Shown piece after piece: positions 3,563 through 27,233 of a stretch of 31,107 nucleotides of DNA. The notes beneath the pieces are model-generated. The model had not been told where the DNA came from and searched no databases. It worked only from the letters and a program-made list of their open reading frames with translations. Position 1 is the stretch's first letter. Each line of letters begins with the position of its first letter. The DNA comes from a virus, in IMG/VR virus record IMGVR_UViG_3300005432_000256, positions 1 through 31,107 of that record, one strand, 5' to 3'. The position numbers and the translations under genes are program-made.

Positions 3563-4107
3563 TTGACTTGTTTCATAAACACGTGCTGGATCAAATTGGA
3601 TCCTCTGAAATCTTTCATACTAAATTTTTTTCCGAAAGTTTTACACACAGTTTATACGAGTTATTTAAAGATCATGATGAGTGGACTACAAAAAGATTCG
3701 CATATTCTACTCATGATGTTCACCTAGAGGAATCTTTTCCTGATCTTTTTGATTTAATAAAAGAAAGGTTTGATAACTCTATTCTAAAAGTAATGGCTGA
3801 TGTGTGGGCATTAGACCAAGCAGTAGAGACAAAAGATATTTTTATAGTTAAGTACTCGAAGGATACACAGACGAAACTAAAAACTCATGTAGATGATAGT
3901 TACATTAGTGGTAGTATAAAATTAAATAATAATTATAAAGGGGGAATATTGACCTTTCCTAGACAGTCTGTAACAAATCAAGAAACAGAAGTAGGTGACT
4001 TATTACTTTGGCCTAGCCAGATTACTCACCCCCATAATAGTACATTATTAGAGGAAGGAGAAAAATATTCGATCACTATTTGGACAGCATGCAAAAATAA
4101 TTCTTGA
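3559..4107 (+). CDS. 2-oxoglutarate/Fe(II)-dependent oxygenase, prolyl-hydroxylase-like
   Basis: A 182-residue protein whose C-terminal half fits the double-stranded beta-helix of the Fe(II)/2OG oxygenases. H110 and D112 (KTHVDDSYI) are the proximal iron ligands. A beta stretch follows (GGILTFPRQ), then GDLLLWPS, and the distal ligand is H157 or H159 (ITHPHNS). The 2OG carboxylate is normally bound by Arg in a GxRYSxxxW motif; here it is GEKYSITIW, so K169 replaces Arg. The reaction would be hydroxylation of an unknown protein or other substrate, using iron. It closes the P1 unit. Its last codons (AAT AAT TCT TGA) are also the conserved upstream block and -35 box of promoter P2. Confidence 0.78.
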   Translation: MIDLFHKHVLDQIGSSEIFHTKFFSESFTHSLYELFKDHDEWTTKRFAYSTHDVHLEESFPDLFDLIKERFDNSILKVMADVWALDQAVETKDIFIVKYSKDTQTKLKTHVDDSYISGSIKLNNNYKGGILTFPRQSVTNQETEVGDLLLWPSQITHPHNSTLLEEGEKYSITIWTACKNNS

Positions 4108-4640: not shown

Positions 4641-4907
4641 GTGAAGAAGGAAGAACTAGCCAAACTTGTGAATGAGTATGGCGATGCTATCATTACATAT
4701 CGTAGTGAGAACTCTAAAAAACTAAAGTATAATGTCTGCACATTGGACTTTAGTACGCAATACATTCAAGACAAGAAAAACCGAGCGAAGGAATCTCAAG
4801 AAACCCTGCTATTATTTTGCTGGGATACGGATTCGTATCGCTTATTGAAACCTAAGAATGTAACGAGTGTAGTACCTCTTTCCTCGGTGCTGAAGAACGA
4901 CTCATGA
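4641..4907 (+). CDS. Conserved small phage protein (GTG start)
   Basis: An 88-residue soluble protein with a helical N-terminus (KKEELAKLVNEYGDAIITYRS), the segment KLKYNVCTLDF, and the motif LLLFCWDTDSYRLLKP, ending near VPLSSVL. From memory the CWDTDSYRLL segment is well conserved among small proteins of marine phages, with no known role. GTG 4641 is chosen because AAGGAG at 4631-4636 lies four bases upstream. Its TGA overlaps the next ATG (ATGA), linking it to the PC4-like gene, so a shared role in DNA or transcription is possible but unproven. Confidence 0.75.
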   Translation: MKKEELAKLVNEYGDAIITYRSENSKKLKYNVCTLDFSTQYIQDKKNRAKESQETLLLFCWDTDSYRLLKPKNVTSVVPLSSVLKNDS

Positions 4908-5221
4908 TACAACTACATGAGCCAGCACCTACATATGAACATATTGTTCACTATGATGAAGAAAAGCAAGTACAGATACGAGTAACTGTGAACACTTTTA
5001 GAGAAACAGAGTATCTTCACGTAAGAAAGTATTATATGGACTTTGATGAAGAGTGGAAGCCTACTCCAGAAGGAATAGCTATGCCACTTGATTTCAATAA
5101 TTCAAGAGCCATGTTTAAAGCACTTGCAGAAATATTATCCTTAGCAGAGTCTCAAAAAATAATTGAGGAACAGTTCAAGGACTTAATACAAGAATTATAT
5201 AGGCACGAAAACCCAAAATAA
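4904..5221 (+). CDS. PC4-like ssDNA-binding transcription cofactor
   Basis: A 105-residue protein whose residues 23-75 follow the pattern of the PC4/Sub1 domain: a beta strand VQIRVTVNTF, then EYLHVRKYYMDFDEEWKPT, then GIAMPLDF and the closing helix ALAEILSLAE. The PTxxGIxxPL motif is the best marker. PC4 domains dimerise and bind single-stranded DNA, and phage versions are thought to act in recombination or transcription. Helical extension after residue 75 ends the protein. The start forms an ATGA junction with the previous gene. The stop at 5219-5221 is inside the conserved upstream block of promoter P3. The domain call is from pattern memory. Confidence 0.72.
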   Translation: MIQLHEPAPTYEHIVHYDEEKQVQIRVTVNTFRETEYLHVRKYYMDFDEEWKPTPEGIAMPLDFNNSRAMFKALAEILSLAESQKIIEEQFKDLIQELYRHENPK

Positions 5222-5224
5222 TTC

Positions 5225-5253
5225 TTGACACTTTATCTTTTTTCTAGTATAAT
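5225..5253 (+). promoter_or_regulatory. Promoter P3, sigma70 consensus
   Basis: TTGACA 5225-5230, 17-bp spacer, TATAAT 5248-5253, preceded by AAAATAATTC. The last spacer bases TTTCTAG also match P1. The predicted start is 5259-5262 and the ligase ATG is at 5262, so the leader is 0-3 bases and holds no Shine-Dalgarno. Confidence 0.9.
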
Positions 5254-5261
5254 ATATTTAT

Positions 5262-6212
5262 ATGAGTGAGAATACCAACAAAAAATCCGCAGCAAGAATG
5301 TACTACGAAGGTGGTGACAGTTCCTTAACTGACGCTGAGTGGGACGCCTTGTATGAGGACGAAACTGTAGGGTATACTCCAGATGATGGAGTACGTCATT
5401 CATTTCCAATGCTGTCACTTAAAAAGACGTTTGATGAGGATGAGCTAGGTTCTTGGATTGCTTCACATGAAGGCCAAGAGGTTATGTGTACTCCAAAATT
5501 AGACGGCTCGGCAGTATCATTATTATACGATAGGGGAAAATTTGTAAGAGCAACTACCCGTGGAAACGGAAAAATTGGAGTAGATATCTCAAATAAAATG
5601 AGGTTTCTAGTGCCAGAAAAAATTAATTTTGCTAAGAAAGTACAAATTGATGGGGAAGTAGTTGCTCCTATAACTATACCAAATGCTCGTAACTATGCGG
5701 CGGGGTCTCTTAATCTAAAATTAGTGAGAGACTTTATACCTCGGTGCAATGAATTACGATTTGTTGCATACGATCTACGACCTCATGGATTTATTGAGTC
5801 TTGGTCTGTACTTCTCAGTTGGTTAGAGGGGCTTGGCTTTTCAACTGTTTACTCAGTTGATGCGTCACAGTACCCAACCGATGGAGAAGTACACAGAATA
5901 GATAATATTGACTATTGGACAAAACAAGGCTTTACTTCTCATCACCCTAGAGGATCGCTTGCCTTCAAAATTCAAAAAGAAGGCGTAGTAACTTATCTAA
6001 GTAATGTTGAGTGGCAAACAGGTAAGTCAGGCGTTGTTACACCAGTAGCAATACTTGGCCCTGTTATGATTGGGGATGCCCTTGTATCAAGAGCAACCTT
6101 ACATAATATGGCTCACATTGAGGAGTTAGGTCTTGAAATTGGTTGCAACGTCGAGGTCATACGAAGTGGTGAAATTATCCCGCGTATTGTCCGACGAGTT
6201 GAGGAAAAATAA
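5262..6212 (+). CDS. ligA: NAD+-dependent DNA ligase, N-terminal half (adenylation + OB)
   Basis: Seals nicks using NAD+. Residues 8-33 are a shortened domain Ia (MYYEGG then LTDAEWDALY), which binds NMN. The adenylation domain follows, with the nucleophile K79 in PKLDG, then TRGNGKIGVDIS, DGEVV, NARNYAAGSL and the motif V segment LAFKI. The OB fold carries VEWQTGKSGVVTPVAILGPV and SRATLHN. The protein stops after SGEIIPRIVRRVEEK, exactly where a normal LigA of about 670 residues would continue into its zinc finger. That missing part is the next gene. P3 places the ATG at the transcript's 5' end. Split ligases of this kind are known from phage T5. Adenylation may occur alone; nick sealing probably needs both parts. 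Confidence 0.93.
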   Translation: MSENTNKKSAARMYYEGGDSSLTDAEWDALYEDETVGYTPDDGVRHSFPMLSLKKTFDEDELGSWIASHEGQEVMCTPKLDGSAVSLLYDRGKFVRATTRGNGKIGVDISNKMRFLVPEKINFAKKVQIDGEVVAPITIPNARNYAAGSLNLKLVRDFIPRCNELRFVAYDLRPHGFIESWSVLLSWLEGLGFSTVYSVDASQYPTDGEVHRIDNIDYWTKQGFTSHHPRGSLAFKIQKEGVVTYLSNVEWQTGKSGVVTPVAILGPVMIGDALVSRATLHNMAHIEELGLEIGCNVEVIRSGEIIPRIVRRVEEK

Positions 6213-6215
6213 TTC

Positions 6216-6244
6216 TTGACATGAAACCTAAATTTCCGTATAAT
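6216..6244 (+). promoter_or_regulatory. Promoter P4, at the ligase split
   Basis: TTGACA 6216-6221, 17-bp spacer, TATAAT 6239-6244, preceded by AAAAATAATTC, whose TAA (6210-6212) is the stop codon of the ligase N-terminal gene. The expected start is near 6251, giving a 20-base leader with AGAGGA (6259-6264) before ATG 6271. Confidence 0.9.
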
Positions 6245-6270
6245 ATACTTTCAATTTCAGAGGAATCTTT

Positions 6271-7023
6271 ATGCAAGCGATAGAAGCTCCAGAATTTTGC
6301 CCCTCTTGTGAATCTTCACTTGAGTGGAAGAATGATCTGCTATATTGCATGAACTCTTTGTGTCCTGCTCAAATTCATAAACGAATAGAACATTTTGCAA
6401 AGAGCCTAAAGATTAAGGGGCTTGGCCCGAAGAGCATTGAGAAGCTAGGTCTATCCTCTTTTCAGTCTATCTATGATATGACTTACCTAGAGATTAGAGA
6501 TGCTCTTTCCTCTGAAAAACTAGCGATAAAACTTTTGCAGGAAATAACCCATTCTAAGAAAAGTAAGATGAATGAGCTATTACCAGCGTTTAGTATTCCT
6601 TTAATCGGAAAGACAGCAGCGCAAAAATTGTCCACTAAAATCAGTGATCTCTCTGAGCTTACTGCGGACAAATGTAAAGAAGCGGGTCTTGGCCCGAAAG
6701 CTACTGAACATTTAATAAACTGGTATTTCGATGAGTTTTTGAGTAGTTTGATTAAATTACCCTTTGATTTTTCTTTTGAAAAGGAGGACACAACGAGAGT
6801 TTTACAAGGCACAGTCTGTATTAGTGGTAGACTTAAAAGTTTTACTACTAAGGCGGATGCCACAGCAGCTTTGGTAAGAGAGGGGTATGTTGTAAAAAGT
6901 ACCATTACAAAAGACGTAACTATTCTTGTAAATGAATCTGGAATAGAATCCGCAAAAACAAAACAAGCCCAAGAGAAGGGCATAAAAATAGTAACCAACC
7001 TATTAAAATTTTTAGGAGAATAA
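6271..7023 (+). CDS. NAD+-dependent DNA ligase, C-terminal half (Zn finger, HhH, BRCT)
   Basis: The second half of the split ligase, 250 residues. A Cys4 zinc finger uses C10, C13, C26 and C31 (PEFCPSC, then CMNSLCPAQ). Helix-hairpin-helix motifs follow (KIKGLGPKSIEKLG, IPLIGKTAAQKL, and GLGPKATEHL), which grip DNA. Residues 175-250 are a BRCT domain (TVCISGRLKSFTTKADA, then LVREGYVVKS and TILVNE). It has no catalytic lysine and should act only with the upstream partner, clamping the DNA. AGAGGA precedes the ATG by six bases. In T5 the equivalent pair is annotated as two ligase subunits. It is followed after three bases by the gene at 7027. Confidence 0.92.
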   Translation: MQAIEAPEFCPSCESSLEWKNDLLYCMNSLCPAQIHKRIEHFAKSLKIKGLGPKSIEKLGLSSFQSIYDMTYLEIRDALSSEKLAIKLLQEITHSKKSKMNELLPAFSIPLIGKTAAQKLSTKISDLSELTADKCKEAGLGPKATEHLINWYFDEFLSSLIKLPFDFSFEKEDTTRVLQGTVCISGRLKSFTTKADATAALVREGYVVKSTITKDVTILVNESGIESAKTKQAQEKGIKIVTNLLKFLGE

Positions 7024-7026
7024 ACT

Positions 7027-7758
7027 ATGGCAACATTGCCTAAGTGGACAGATGAGCGTACCAACGAGCTCACAAATTTCGTTGGTGGAGAATCCCCAGT
7101 ATCTCAAGATACTGTTGCAGCAGCAGCAGATCAACTTGAGACTACTACACGGTCAGTTTCTAGCAAACTGAGAAAGATGGGTTATGATGTAGAACTTGCT
7201 TCAGCAAAGAGCACTCGTGCTTTTTCTGAGCAGCAAGAATCTACTCTTGCAGCTTTTGTTTCTGACAATAGCGGTGAGTATACCTATGCTCAGATTGCTG
7301 ACAACTTTGAAGGCGGAGCATTTAGTGCTAAGTCAATTCAAGGTAAGATTCTTTCTATGGAACTTACTGACCACGTTAAGCCAGCTCCCAAAGTGGAGAC
7401 TGTTAGAACCTACTCACCAGATGAAGAGGCTACCTTTATTTCTATGGTAAATGATGGTGCTTTCGTAGAAGCGATTGCAGAAGCCCTTGATCGTAGTGTA
7501 AACAGTGTTCGTGGCAAGGCTCTCAGCCTTCTACGTTCTGGCGATATTGACGCTATTCCCCGTCAAGAGCACACTAAAGGCTCAGCAAAGAGTGATCCTC
7601 TAGCCGACCTCGGTGATGTATCTGACATGACAGTTGAAGCAATTGCAGAAGCGATTGGTAAAACTGCACGTGGTGTTAAGACTATGTTGACCCGAAGAGG
7701 TTTGACAGCGTCTGACTACGATGGTGCGGCTAAAAAAGAAAAAGCAGCAGCATCTTAA
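7027..7758 (+). CDS. Protein with four tandem HTH-like repeats
   Basis: A 243-residue protein built of about four copies of a helical module. Each opens with a short aromatic/acidic strand (LPKWTDERTNELT; RAFSEQQESTLA; RTYSPDEEATFI) and ends with a recognition-helix-like segment (TTRSVSSKLRKMGY; SAKSIQGKILSM; SVNSVRGKALSLL; TARGVKTMLTRRG). The fourth copy has lost its first helix. This resembles Myb/homeodomain-type repeats and matches the single copy in the protein at 4159. It probably binds DNA along several turns, as a regulator or DNA-organising protein. AGGAGA seven bases before the ATG is a good ribosome site. It is co-transcribed with the ligase C-terminal gene from P4 and is followed by a hairpin. 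Confidence 0.72.
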   Translation: MATLPKWTDERTNELTNFVGGESPVSQDTVAAAADQLETTTRSVSSKLRKMGYDVELASAKSTRAFSEQQESTLAAFVSDNSGEYTYAQIADNFEGGAFSAKSIQGKILSMELTDHVKPAPKVETVRTYSPDEEATFISMVNDGAFVEAIAEALDRSVNSVRGKALSLLRSGDIDAIPRQEHTKGSAKSDPLADLGDVSDMTVEAIAEAIGKTARGVKTMLTRRGLTASDYDGAAKKEKAAAS

Positions 7759-7772
7759 TTTAGTGTTAATTC

Positions 7773-7804
7773 TACAGCCGTGATGAGGGGTCATTGCGGC
7801 TGTA
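7773..7804 (+). other. Intergenic hairpin, possible weak terminator or mRNA element
   Basis: A perfect eight-base-pair inverted repeat, TACAGCCG (7773-7780) with CGGCTGTA (7797-7804). The inner TGA and TCA can extend the stem across a small bulge. Only a short T-poor tail (TTCTTA) follows, so it is not a classical terminator. It separates the four-repeat protein gene from the helicase gene, and the helicase ribosome site begins nine bases later. Confidence 0.55.
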
Positions 7805-10815: not shown

Positions 10816-13078
10816 AGTTGCCTTAGTAGAAACTAAACCGAGTAGGACGGACTACAGAAAAGAGTTTGAAGGAGCATTTGACTTCGATCAGTATCAACTC
10901 TGTTCTGATCCTACAATTAAGAAAGTATTAAAACGAGACTGTGACATAGACATTGATGCAAATGTTTATGACTGGATCGTATTAGTTGGAAGTGAAGCAC
11001 TGAAGTATTTTACAAAAATAACTTCAGTTACAGAATACTCTGGTAAGAAAGTAGAAGAAAAGTTTTTGCCAGTAATTAATCCTGCTATGCTTAAGTTTAA
11101 ACCTGAAGCTAAAAAGACGTGGGAAGAATCAAAAGAAAGTATCATTAAGTATATTAATGGTGAAATTGAGGAGGTGGTAATAGATGAAAGCATTGCGTTC
11201 GGGATTCAAGACACAGGAGACTGTAACAATTACTTACGAGAAGCCCTTGAAGACGATGGCGATTATATCGCGCTTGACTCTGAAACAACTGGTTTGTACC
11301 CTCGCGATGGGCACATACTTGGTATCTCACTTTCTTACAACGGCAAGCAAGGAGTTTACATCTCAACAGACTGCTTTGATGATGAGTCTGAAAGACTTTT
11401 ACAGGAACTCTTTGCTGAGAAAACAGTAATATTTCATAATGCTAAGTTTGATATGGCATTTTTTGAGTATCATTTTAATTTCAAGTTTCCAAAGTTTGAA
11501 GATACAATGTTACTCTCATACCTCATCAATGAGAACCCAGGCAATCACGGCCTGAAGACATTAGCTATCAAGTATACTCCCTACGGAGATTACGAGAAGC
11601 CAATGTATGATTGGATGGATAACTATCGTAAAGAGAATGGCATCCTCAAAGGAGATTTCCAATGGGGTTCTATTCCATTTGATGTAATGAAAACTTACGC
11701 AGCGATGGATGCTTTATGTACCTATCTAATCTTTGATAAATTTAAGAAGATCAAGCAGAATACCAAACTCAAGTGGGTATATGACAATATACTTATTCCT
11801 GGCACACGCTTTTTGATTGATGCACAGGACAATGGTGTTCCGTTCGATAAAACAAGACTATACAAATCACAAGAATTAATGCAGGATAACATTGATGAAG
11901 CAATTACTAAGCTATATCAGGATTCTGCTATAGGACGGTGGGAGACAATAAATGATAAAGATTTTAACCCTAACTCTACTGTTCAGTTACGTTCCCTTCT
12001 TTTTGACCACTTGGGTTTGCAACCTACTGGAAAGAAAACAGGAACGGGAGCGCACTCTACGGATGCAGAAGTACTCGGAGAGCTTAAAAGTCAATCCGAA
12101 GTTCCTGGACTTATCCTTGACATACGTCAACGATCCAAAATTAAAAATACTTACTTGGACAAAATCATACCGCAATTGGATAGAGATAGCAGACTTCGCA
12201 CATCGTTTAATCTTCATGGGACTACTAGCGGTAGGCTCAGCTCTTCTGGTAAGCTTAATATGCAACAGCTTCCTAGGGATAACCCAGCTGTAAAAGGATG
12301 TATTAAAGCAGCAGAAGGACATAAGATTGTTGCAATGGACTTAACTACAGCAGAAGTTTACGTTGCAGCAGTTCTTGCAGAAGATAAAGCGCTCATGGAG
12401 GTATTTCGCTCTGGTGGAAACTTTCACAGTAGTATTGCGAAAACAGTATTTAGACTACCATGTGAGGTAGAAGATGTAGCAGAGTATTATACTACCCAAA
12501 GACAGGCTGCAAAAGCAGTTACTTTTGGTATTATGTACGGAGCAGGCCCAAAGAAGATTAGCGAGCAAGTTACCAAAGACTCGGGCAAATACTTTAGTCA
12601 GCAAGAAGCAAAAGAAGTAATTGATGACTATTTTCAATCTTTCCATAAGCTCAAGCTATGGATAAATAATAACCACAAATTCATTGAACAAAATGGTTTT
12701 GTGTACAGTTTCTTTGGTAGAAAAAGGAGGTTACCAAATGTCAAATCTTCGGATGCTGGCGTCAAGAGTCATAGCATTAGGAGTGGTCTTAACTTTTTGG
12801 TCCAGTCTGCTGCTAGTGATATTAACCTTCTTGGGGCTATAGATATGCACGCAGATATACAAGCGAGTAACATGAAAGCTCGTATATTTGCACTTGTTCA
12901 TGACTCAATTCTCGCAGAAGTACCAGAGGATGAGATAGATATATACAGTGAAAAATTAAAGTACTGGATACAACTAGACAGAGGAATCAAAATTCCTGGA
13001 GCCCCTGTTGGGTGTGACTTCGAGATAGGAGACGACTACTCAATGGGTAAATTCGAGAAGCAATATGGCGTACTCTGA
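10808..13078 (+). CDS. DNA polymerase, family A, with 3'-5' exonuclease
   Basis: The replicative polymerase, 756 residues. Residues 1-125 are an N-terminal region I cannot name. The proofreading exonuclease has D157 and E159 (ALDSETTG), FHNAKFD and YAAMD. The polymerase has TSGRLSSSGKLNMQQ, motif A around D511 and E516 (DLTTAEVY in place of the usual DYSQIELR), and the O helix RQAAKAVTFGIMYG with K569 and F573, the position of Phe762 in E. coli Pol I. Motif C reads VHDSILAEV, with D699, where most family members have HDE. No 5' nuclease is attached; that activity is the separate gene at 21107. It overlaps primase and iscU. Confidence 0.95.
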   Translation: MAKVALVETKPSRTDYRKEFEGAFDFDQYQLCSDPTIKKVLKRDCDIDIDANVYDWIVLVGSEALKYFTKITSVTEYSGKKVEEKFLPVINPAMLKFKPEAKKTWEESKESIIKYINGEIEEVVIDESIAFGIQDTGDCNNYLREALEDDGDYIALDSETTGLYPRDGHILGISLSYNGKQGVYISTDCFDDESERLLQELFAEKTVIFHNAKFDMAFFEYHFNFKFPKFEDTMLLSYLINENPGNHGLKTLAIKYTPYGDYEKPMYDWMDNYRKENGILKGDFQWGSIPFDVMKTYAAMDALCTYLIFDKFKKIKQNTKLKWVYDNILIPGTRFLIDAQDNGVPFDKTRLYKSQELMQDNIDEAITKLYQDSAIGRWETINDKDFNPNSTVQLRSLLFDHLGLQPTGKKTGTGAHSTDAEVLGELKSQSEVPGLILDIRQRSKIKNTYLDKIIPQLDRDSRLRTSFNLHGTTSGRLSSSGKLNMQQLPRDNPAVKGCIKAAEGHKIVAMDLTTAEVYVAAVLAEDKALMEVFRSGGNFHSSIAKTVFRLPCEVEDVAEYYTTQRQAAKAVTFGIMYGAGPKKISEQVTKDSGKYFSQQEAKEVIDDYFQSFHKLKLWINNNHKFIEQNGFVYSFFGRKRRLPNVKSSDAGVKSHSIRSGLNFLVQSAASDINLLGAIDMHADIQASNMKARIFALVHDSILAEVPEDEIDIYSEKLKYWIQLDRGIKIPGAPVGCDFEIGDDYSMGKFEKQYGVL

Positions 13079-13475
13079 TAAAGTACTAGATCATTACGAA
13101 AATCCCAGAAATGTTGGAAAGTTCGATCCCAAAGACCAGACAATAGGAACAGGAATGGTTGGTGCTCCTGCTTGCGGAGATGTTATGAGGTTACAAATTA
13201 AAGTCTCTAAAGCAGGAGTGATTGAAGACGCTAAGTTTAAAACTTATGGATGTGGGTCTGCTATTGCATCAAGCTCGCTCCTAACTGAGTGGGTGAAAGG
13301 AAAAAGTCTTGATGAAGCTAGTGAAATCAAGAATACTGAGATAGCAGATGAATTAGCATTACCGCCCGTAAAAATACATTGTAGTGTTCTTGCGGAAGAT
13401 GCGATAAAAGCCGCTATAAGCGATTACGAGGGAAAAAATGTTAACCATAACTGCGAATGCCAAGAAGTATCTTGA
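13065..13475 (+). CDS. iscU: Iron-sulfur cluster scaffold IscU
   Basis: Scaffold on which [2Fe-2S] clusters are built from cysteine sulfur and iron. Residues 1-125 are almost the canonical proteobacterial IscU: DHYENPRNVG, then C37 and D39 (GAPACGD), C63 (TYGCGSAIASSSL), LPPVK at 99-103 and C106 (IHCSVLAEDAIKAAI). All cluster ligands are there, as is the LPPVK site that binds the chaperone HscA. No iscS, hscA or hscB is in the window, so host partners are presumably used. The C-terminal tail adds two cysteines, C130 and C132, in sequence shared with the iscA start (38-base overlap). The ATG overlaps the polymerase by 14 bases. Phage-borne IscU is rare as far as I know. Confidence 0.95.
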   Translation: MAYSDKVLDHYENPRNVGKFDPKDQTIGTGMVGAPACGDVMRLQIKVSKAGVIEDAKFKTYGCGSAIASSSLLTEWVKGKSLDEASEIKNTEIADELALPPVKIHCSVLAEDAIKAAISDYEGKNVNHNCECQEVS

Positions 13476-13743
13476 GGACAAATTAAAACGAGAAGGGCAC
13501 AAATATGCAGGTCTTAGTTTAAAACCAAGTGGTTGTGCTGGCTTCGAATATGTTTGGGACTATGCTGATGAAGATCACAATGGTCGAGTAGTTGCAGATT
13601 TAGTAGTGGTTGAAGAGAATGCAGAGCTTGCTGTAGCTGGAAGTGTAATTGACTACAACTCTAGTTTGGCAAGTTCTGAACTTACAATAACTAACCCAAA
13701 TATACAGGATGCTTGTGGATGTGGGGTAAGCTTCACAATATGA
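13438..13743 (+). CDS. iscA: A-type Fe-S carrier protein (IscA/ErpA family)
   Basis: A 101-residue HesB/IscA-family protein that carries iron or Fe-S clusters between scaffold and target. The three invariant cysteines are C33 (PSGCAGFEYVW), C93 and C95 (DACGCGVSF). TNPN before the CGC is another family marker. It could be IscA or ErpA by sequence; its pairing with IscU favours IscA. The ATG at 13438 has GAGGG a few bases upstream and lies in another frame inside the iscU 3' end, so the two are translated together. Likely clients are unknown: candidates are host enzymes with Fe-S clusters or phage enzymes not in the window. Confidence 0.93.
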   Translation: MLTITANAKKYLEDKLKREGHKYAGLSLKPSGCAGFEYVWDYADEDHNGRVVADLVVVEENAELAVAGSVIDYNSSLASSELTITNPNIQDACGCGVSFTI

Positions 13744-24814: not shown

Positions 24815-24966
24815 AATTTGAATTTAGCGTAGATGAAATCAATATTATTCTACAAGGTTTAGCGGAACTTCCCGCTAAACACAGTATGAATATTATTGCA
24901 AGAATCCAAGAGGATGCAGCAAAACAAATGCAGCCCGAAATCAATACGGAGGATAAAGACGTATGA
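24811..24966 (+). CDS. 51-residue helical phage protein coupling nrdB to the receptor gene
   Basis: ATG 24811 overlaps the nrdB TGA, and the TGA at 24964-24966 overlaps the ATG of the TonB-dependent receptor, so the three genes form a tight chain. The product is KFEFSVDEINIILQGLAELP, then SMNIIARIQEDAAKQM and an acidic end. From memory, short FSVxExNxILxxLAxLP proteins are common in phages, with unknown function. Its end contains the GGAGG ribosome site (24943-24947) used by the receptor gene. Confidence 0.68.
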   Translation: MKFEFSVDEINIILQGLAELPAKHSMNIIARIQEDAAKQMQPEINTEDKDV

Positions 24967-27233
24967 GTCGAGTTATAAAACTCTTCATATTAGCAAGTTT
25001 AATAGGCTTTTCAGGACCGAGCCTTTCCAATGAATATCTAGAAGAGATTGTGGTAGTTGCAGAAAAACGTGACGAAAATCTAAAAGATATATCACAAGCT
25101 GTAACAGTTCTCTTGGGGGAAGAGTTACGTCAGAAAAACATAAACACTTTTGTTGATCTGAGTGCTATAGCTCCAGGGGTAACTGTTACAAAAAATGAAG
25201 GCTATAAAACAATTATATCAATTCGAGGAATTGGGAATGAAACCAATCAGAATGCAATAGCAGCTCCTTCAGTAGCTTATCATTTGGACGGGGTCTATGT
25301 AGCCTCCCCATTTGCGCTTCAGACAGACTTTATAGATGTCGAGCATATAGAAATACTGAGAGGGCCACAAGGCACGCTTTTTGGACAAAACTCTACAGGG
25401 GGTGTTATAAATGTAATTAGCCAAGCGCCAAGTGATGTATTCGGTATGAATGCAGATCTTACTGCTGGAGACTATAATCTTACAAAGTTTAGAGTTTCTT
25501 TAAATAGTCCAATATCAGAAAGTTTTTCCACACGAAACTCTGTATCAGTTACAAATAGAGATGGTTTTTCTACTAATTTACTCAACGGACAAGATTTGGA
25601 CGACATGAGTTCGATTAGTGCTCGCACAGACTGGGAATACATGAAAGGTATCGCACGTTTGAGAGTATTTGGGCAATATTTTGATGCAGACAACAACGGT
25701 GCTGCAATGAAAGGCATAGATGACCAGACTCCAAATCCAAGAGAGCTAGTACAAGATACCGAAGCAAATTTTGAGTTAACATCAAAACTTGCAGCAGCTA
25801 TACTTGAAATCGGACTAAGTAATTCAACCTTGAAAGCGATAGCAAGTTGGCAAAAAGACGATGTGTTGATAAAGCGAGACAATGATCGACATAACTTTGG
25901 AGATATTCATATTGGTGGTCTTTGGGCAGGTCTCCCGTATATTCGAGCAGAGTATGACCCAGAAACATCCATAGTCGAGACAAAGACTTTTGAAATCAAC
26001 ATACTTTCTGAAACTCCGTTATTTGGTAAACTAGATTGGACAGTTGGAGGATTTTATCTCGACCATGAGATAGAAAATCATATTCGTGAGTACAAAGATG
26101 TAAACAACGTATATGAAGTAGGTTTGGCTGATGGACAGTTTACTCCCTATGTACATAATCCTGAGTGCCCTGCATGCTTTGCAATCTACGGAGCCGAAGT
26201 AGGATTTATTTCAGATGCATTTCCTACTAGAGAGTCGTATTCAGCATATGCACAGACAACTTTGCACATAACTGACACTCTCCGTCTGATTACAGGAATT
26301 CGATATACTGATGATACAGTAGATAGTTTTGTATCCAACTTCTTTGGAATACCTGGACAGGTGTATAATCTCAATGAGAACCTGACAGAGACTACGGGAA
26401 GAGTTGCAGTAGAGTGGGATGTAAGTGATGGGACGATGACCTACCTCTCTGTGACAAAAGGGTTTAAGCCAGGGGGCAGTAACCTTACATTTGGTTTCGA
26501 TAATGACAATGCTCCTGTAATGGTTTTTCCAATTTTTGAAAATGAAGAGATCATGGCATATGAGTTAGGTTTGAAAATGGCTGGCGAGTACACAAGACTC
26601 AATATAGCAATTTTTTACTATGATTATGAAAACTTACAGTTTCAAGCTACTGACCCTGATATCTACCGAGGAGGAGTGGCAAATATACCCGAAGTCGAAG
26701 TAAAAGGAGGTGAGCTAGAACTTACTCAACTTCTTACGGATTCTTTGACTTTTGACCTTAAAGTATCATTTTTAGAGTCAAATATCAAATCCTCTTACGA
26801 AGCCTTGGATAATGTAAAAGCAGAACCATACTTTTTTGGGCAAGAAGCAATAAGATATGGACTACGAGAAAACATACAAGGGAATGACTTGGCTAAAACA
26901 CCAAACATGACTGCGAACGCAAGTTTGAAGTATGAAAAGTTTTTTGATTCTGGGTTATTTACAGGAATTTTAGAATATGTCCATAGAGGAGAGTTTCAGC
27001 AGAGAGTAATAAACAACCCGACTGTTGACACAGTTCCAAGTTACAATATAGTTAATTTATTGCTTAGTTATGACTTAGCTAATGAGAAATTAGGGTTTGA
27101 CTTAATGGCTTATAATTTAACTGATGAAGTGGGTGTAAACTCACGTATGACTGATGTATTCGGAGTGAGTGCAACAGGCATAGAATTGATTCCTCCTAAA
27201 CAAATTATGGGAAGAATTAGATATACTTTTTAA
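24963..27233 (+). CDS. TonB-dependent outer-membrane receptor, complete
   Basis: A 22-strand-barrel transporter of 756 residues that would import iron complexes or other large nutrients using host TonB energy. Signal peptide 1-22 (RVIKLFILASLIGFSGPSLS); TonB box EEIVVVA at 27-33; plug domain at about 40-155 with SIRGIGN (86-92), HLDGVYV (107-113) and EILRGPQGTLFGQNSTGG (130-147). The barrel ends PKQIMGRIRYTF with terminal Phe, the Bam signal. C402 and C405 lie in a probable surface loop. Nothing is truncated. Type by sequence is the IroN/CirA-like group of gamma- and alphaproteobacteria; substrate unknown. It is coupled to the RNR operon and ends at a terminator. A host-derived moron is the likely origin; its codon choice looks like that of its neighbours. 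Confidence 0.94.
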   Translation: MSRVIKLFILASLIGFSGPSLSNEYLEEIVVVAEKRDENLKDISQAVTVLLGEELRQKNINTFVDLSAIAPGVTVTKNEGYKTIISIRGIGNETNQNAIAAPSVAYHLDGVYVASPFALQTDFIDVEHIEILRGPQGTLFGQNSTGGVINVISQAPSDVFGMNADLTAGDYNLTKFRVSLNSPISESFSTRNSVSVTNRDGFSTNLLNGQDLDDMSSISARTDWEYMKGIARLRVFGQYFDADNNGAAMKGIDDQTPNPRELVQDTEANFELTSKLAAAILEIGLSNSTLKAIASWQKDDVLIKRDNDRHNFGDIHIGGLWAGLPYIRAEYDPETSIVETKTFEINILSETPLFGKLDWTVGGFYLDHEIENHIREYKDVNNVYEVGLADGQFTPYVHNPECPACFAIYGAEVGFISDAFPTRESYSAYAQTTLHITDTLRLITGIRYTDDTVDSFVSNFFGIPGQVYNLNENLTETTGRVAVEWDVSDGTMTYLSVTKGFKPGGSNLTFGFDNDNAPVMVFPIFENEEIMAYELGLKMAGEYTRLNIAIFYYDYENLQFQATDPDIYRGGVANIPEVEVKGGELELTQLLTDSLTFDLKVSFLESNIKSSYEALDNVKAEPYFFGQEAIRYGLRENIQGNDLAKTPNMTANASLKYEKFFDSGLFTGILEYVHRGEFQQRVINNPTVDTVPSYNIVNLLLSYDLANEKLGFDLMAYNLTDEVGVNSRMTDVFGVSATGIELIPPKQIMGRIRYTF

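Follow-up and report, generated by a model that had tools for sequence, protein, structure and literature searches.

Layout of the ligase locus

The window, meaning the whole stretch of DNA analysed here, is IMG/VR record IMGVR_UViG_3300005432_000256 (31,107 nucleotides) from a marine phage. The first-pass annotation had placed within it an NAD+-dependent DNA ligase in two parts with a promoter between them, and this was borne out by the open reading frames, their codons, the promoter sequence and the domain matches. Inspection of the reading frames and of the start and stop codons gave two separate, intact genes, ligA and ligB, with a gap of 58 bases that is filled by promoter P4. The features of the locus are:

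5225..5253, + strand: promoter P3 (TTGACA-17-TATAAT) with the same upstream block as P4; it precedes ligA and is the positional counterpart of the annotated T5 promoter before ligA
5262..6212, + strand: ligA, the reduced Ia, adenylation and OB fold half of the ligase, 316 aa (domain, profile, PHROG and structure matches)
6205..6215, + strand: AAAAATAATTC, an A-rich element directly 5' of the P4 -35 box that overlaps the last codon and TAA of ligA; AAAAATA is nearly invariant across 75 distinct junctions
6216..6244, + strand: promoter P4 (TTGACA-17-TATAAT), counterpart of T5 P-K28a/b
6271..7023, + strand: ligB, the zinc finger, HhH and BRCT half of the ligase, 250 aa (profile, PHROG and structure matches)
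7027..7758, + strand: D5-like DNA-binding transcription regulator without a promoter of its own, starting 4 bases past the end of ligB
7773..7804, + strand: 14-bp hairpin 3' of D5, the probable end of a P4-ligB-D5 unit (14 pairs, 10 with compensatory changes in relatives)

The LigA protein ends in ...IVRRVEEK, followed by the TAA at 6210-6212, and the ligB ATG at 6271 lies 26 bases past the P4 -10 box, as first annotated, with AGAGGA as its ribosome site. Elsewhere in the window, overlapping IscU-like and IscA/ErpA-like Fe-S carrier genes (13065-13743) were recognised by eye directly 3' of the DNA polymerase gene, as was a full-length TonB-dependent receptor-like ORF (24963-27233) 3' of the ribonucleotide reductase genes of this phage contig, for which the only PHROG match was weak and unnamed. 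A search of the window for RNA families and tRNAs found none.

Identity of the two halves

In a domain search LigA matched the NAD-ligase adenylation and OB domains; a Pfam search with LigB gave no match, and LigB aligned to positions 387-648 of the LigA profile TIGR00575, so that the break loses little beyond a few linker residues. The clean break between OB fold and zinc finger that had been proposed from the letters alone was upheld, as it falls in the linker joining these domains, which in fused enzymes is 7-21 residues long. The top PHROG matches were the two-subunit families 3359 and 3498, both halves being nearer to T5-type subunits than to fused ligases. Two chains (A and B) that were solved and deposited together in the split ligase structures 9hu3 and 9i5i matched the halves over nearly their full lengths at 1.6e-54 and 2.7e-27, LigB matching the second chain, although the solved ligase is a related but different protein. 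In an alignment of 14 split ligases, K79, D81, G82, R100, E132 and K236 of LigA (among them the lysine of KLDG) and the zinc cysteines 10, 13, 26 and 31 of LigB were invariant. As in T5-type ligases, the window encodes separate adenylation/OB and zinc finger/HhH/BRCT proteins, keeps the catalytic and zinc-binding residues in them, and carries their genes between those for a PC4-like regulator and D5.

The two products are probably the subunits of a T5-type heterodimeric NAD+-dependent ligase, with complex formation predicted from homology. LigA would provide the nucleotidyl-transferase and OB core and LigB the zinc finger, HhH and BRCT DNA-binding parts, and the two would seal nicks as a complex.

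Promoter P4 and its upstream block

P4 (6216-6244) scored 12/12 against the sigma-70 consensus, which may not be the consensus of the host. None of 2000 shuffles of the 58-base gap reached 12/12, and this result, together with the recurrence of a promoter before ligB across relatives, led us to reject a chance promoter. The block AAAAATAATTC-TTGACA was found at five sites in the window (-35 hexamers at 4104, 5225, 6216, 9185 and 16453), and the sixth of the full-consensus promoters within the first 17 kb, 12/12 at 1770, has a variant block. The gene at 1805-2377 starts 6 bases past this sixth promoter.

The ligA TAA was originally described as belonging to the conserved block of P4; it does lie in AAAAATAATTC-TTGACA, but such a stop is not peculiar to the ligase: the gene 5' of ligA (4904-5221) has its own at the same place within the next block copy. 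Across relatives the register of the ligA stop varies, falling before the block, within it (as TAA or TAG), or at the TGA that the -35 box contains.

Published descriptions of T5-type promoters (PMC3326045, PMC7472727) include A-rich sequence around -43 and start regions rich in A/T, and the conserved block of the window fits them. The window promoter has the features of T5 early sigma-70 promoters (spacing of 17-18, A-rich near -43, A/T-rich start), whereas their -35 is described as TTGCT and that of the window is TTGACA. Judged from its sequence, P4, with its A-rich element 5' of the -35 box, is probably a strong promoter for the host sigma-70. That the ligA stop overlaps it so closely is best read as compaction, because in relatives the end of ligA slides against a fixed promoter or other genes intervene. 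We give this explanation as a whole (heterodimeric ligase of shared T5-type descent, host-type promoter, P4-ligB-D5 transcription unit and compaction) a probability of roughly 0.85.

Comparison with T5, fused ligases and T4-type cassettes

Compared gene by gene, the window and E. coli phage T5 are colinear over the D2-D15 interval, and the window is also colinear with other Demerecviridae; T5 and the window share the order D3, T5.114, T5.115, ligA, ligB, D5, D6, pri, pol. The T5 record AY543070 annotates promoters before D3 (P-N26), before ligA, in the ligA-ligB gap (P-K28b and P-K28a) and after D10 (P31A and P31B), and the window promoters at 4104, 5225, 6216 and 16453 lie in the same four places, which makes P4 the positional counterpart of P-K28. 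The likeness to the split ligase of T5 was correctly stated in the first-pass annotation and is stronger than was put there, T5 itself having annotated promoters at the split. In T5, as in the window, the two subunits are split at the OB/zinc-finger linker with a promoter in the gap; however, the gap in T5 measures 202 bases and holds two promoters (-35 TTGACA and TTGCTA), compared with 58 bases and one full-consensus promoter overlapping the ligA stop in the window, and the ligase proteins are about 36-41% identical. Fused phage and bacterial LigA enzymes (PHROG 3869, TIGR00575) have the same domains in the same order as the window halves, but they are single polypeptides without a promoter-like site at the linker, fall outside the T5-like clade and are about 22-34% identical to the LigA of the window. 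The two-part ligase with a promoter is the long-known T5 arrangement, which an entire group of related phages has inherited.

In T4-type mobile regulatory cassettes (PeSL), promoter copies flank inserted genes, and the window resembles them in that copies of an early promoter, with their flanks conserved, recur at gene borders. At the ligA-ligB gap no promoter copies were found around inserted genes, the block promoter lying only next to ligB with none at the ligA end; a cassette of this kind was rejected, since paired promoter copies were lacking in relatives with insertions.

Survey of relatives

The survey comprised 116 distinct loci that carry the two halves, drawn from IMG/VR contigs, Demerecviridae and two contigs binned with bacteria, after one locus, L218, that had been counted as split by script was removed as a mycoplasma genetic-code artefact (117 to 116); scans of IMG/VR sampled the best 80 matches per query. 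The ligase was split in 116/116, and all 116 had a promoter-like site (8-12/12) within 90 bases 5' of ligB, with at least 10 matches in 113, compared with a mean promoter score of 7.6 inside ligA. No fused member of the T5-like clade was present among the matches listed (best 80 per IMG/VR query). In a sample of 60 records spread across the 1,230 phage records that matched, those in which both halves matched at 35.7% identity or above were split, and at 28.4% identity or less the matches were single. The outcomes that had been named as fatal to the first description, a frame error, fused relatives, or a split without the promoter, did not occur within the T5-like clade, and the comparison of fused and split forms that it called for gave a split ligase with a promoter-like site before ligB throughout this clade.

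In relatives with 0.3-2 kb of genes between ligA and ligB, the block promoter was 37-58 bases 5' of ligB, and there was no block promoter at the ligA end of these loci. Vibrio and Proteus Demerecviridae have a further promoter about 155 bases 5' of ligB, and in four of their loci (L048, L049, L050 and L054) the promoters about 155 and 58 bases before ligB flank a leader of about 95 bases. In one sub-clade, comprising L037 (4772-5001) and the similar loci L038, L039, L041, L042 and L044, ligA is separated from the ligB promoter by a small hydrophobic ORF of about 50 codons.

Transcription of ligB and D5

The survey of relatives detected no promoter at the ligB/D5 border, where the usual best score was 7-8. 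The annotation of phage Sugarland has a terminator where the covarying hairpin lies 3' of D5; the U tract of the window hairpin is weak (TTCTTAT), and this hairpin may possibly be non-terminating. From these features we infer a unit P4-ligB-D5-hairpin, in which P4 would give ligB, and above all the D5 regulator, transcription of its own, ending at the hairpin. LigA would be read from its own promoter P3, and readthrough from P3 into ligB-D5 would be possible because the window has no terminator between ligA and ligB. That a P4-type promoter stays before ligB when genes intervene argues that P4 belongs to ligB and what follows. As P4 would also serve D5, which has no promoter of its own, there is a simpler reason for its presence than unequal subunit amounts; this need of D5 for a promoter leaves the lasting split of the ligase unexplained.

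In the nearest clade of the window, ligA starts 8 bases past the -10 box (5225-5262 in the window) without a ribosome site, so that its mRNA may be leaderless; in most other relatives the spacing from the -10 box is 22-29 bases and a ribosome site is present.

It is possible, as the first-pass annotation also suggested, though we consider it doubtful, that the promoter at the split is kept mainly for an excess of LigB over LigA, perhaps for a role of free LigB. Such an excess would be in keeping with ligB being readable from P3 readthrough plus P4, with the two promoters before ligB in T5 and several Demerecviridae, and with the short start of ligA in the nearest clade of the window, where ligB has a Shine-Dalgarno site and ligA has none. 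Yet as consensus promoters P3 and P4 of the window are equal in quality, ligA has a normal leader in other lineages, and the need to express D5 accounts for P4 without any demand for dosage.

Origin of the split

The T5-type split ligases formed one clade with support of 100/99 in a tree of the adenylation half and 100/100 in a tree of both halves, and the fused phage and bacterial ligases fell outside it. Because there is a single clade, the association of split and promoter counts as one event, in which cause and effect are indistinguishable. The split with its promoter is one inherited ancestral state and is neither recent nor a sequencing error; the split ligase probably came from an ancestor that the Demerecviridae share with a large marine group of T5-like phages.

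The jumbo phage Tunturi_5 (L239, PP885688.1 83460-88691) also has a split NAD+ ligase, with its halves 3.2 kb apart, and no sigma-70-like promoter was detected before its ligB. Its ligase was placed as sister to the T5 clade, and placement among the fused phage ligases was not rejected (p-AU 0.246). This is possibly a second, independent split; if instead Tunturi_5 shares the split of T5, the split may be older than the promoter.

The first-pass annotation had suggested that insertion of a promoter divided one gene. A promoter gained inside an ancestral fused gene could have ended the first half with its stops and given the second half its start with its leader, and then been kept; in favour of this, neither split nor promoter is seen without the other in the T5-like clade, ligA and ligB stand in the order of the fused gene, two reading frames meet a stop codon in the P4 block, from which the window ligA also takes its final codon and stop, and no promoter-like site occurs at the linker in fused genes, where scores are 6-8. 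However, all of these cases descend from one ancestor and so amount to one observation of the association; LigA stops at one and the same domain boundary irrespective of promoter position; the promoter follows the position of ligB and not the end of ligA; and Tunturi_5, which may share the split, lacks a detected sigma-70-like promoter before ligB. This evidence does not establish the suggestion, and we regard as improbable an insertion in the ancestor of all T5-like phages that cut the ligase gene and was fixed by giving D5 its own promoter. Were it true, the two-part ligase would be a by-product of regulatory evolution. A sequencing or assembly error that divided one gene has a negligible probability and was rejected, because cultured phages and over 100 distinct contigs share the same structure.

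Significance

These results assign a large set of uncultured marine phages to the replication lineage of T5, of which a promoter shortly 5' of ligB is a constant. Why the ligase of T5 is split, a long-standing question, thereby becomes open to experimental test.
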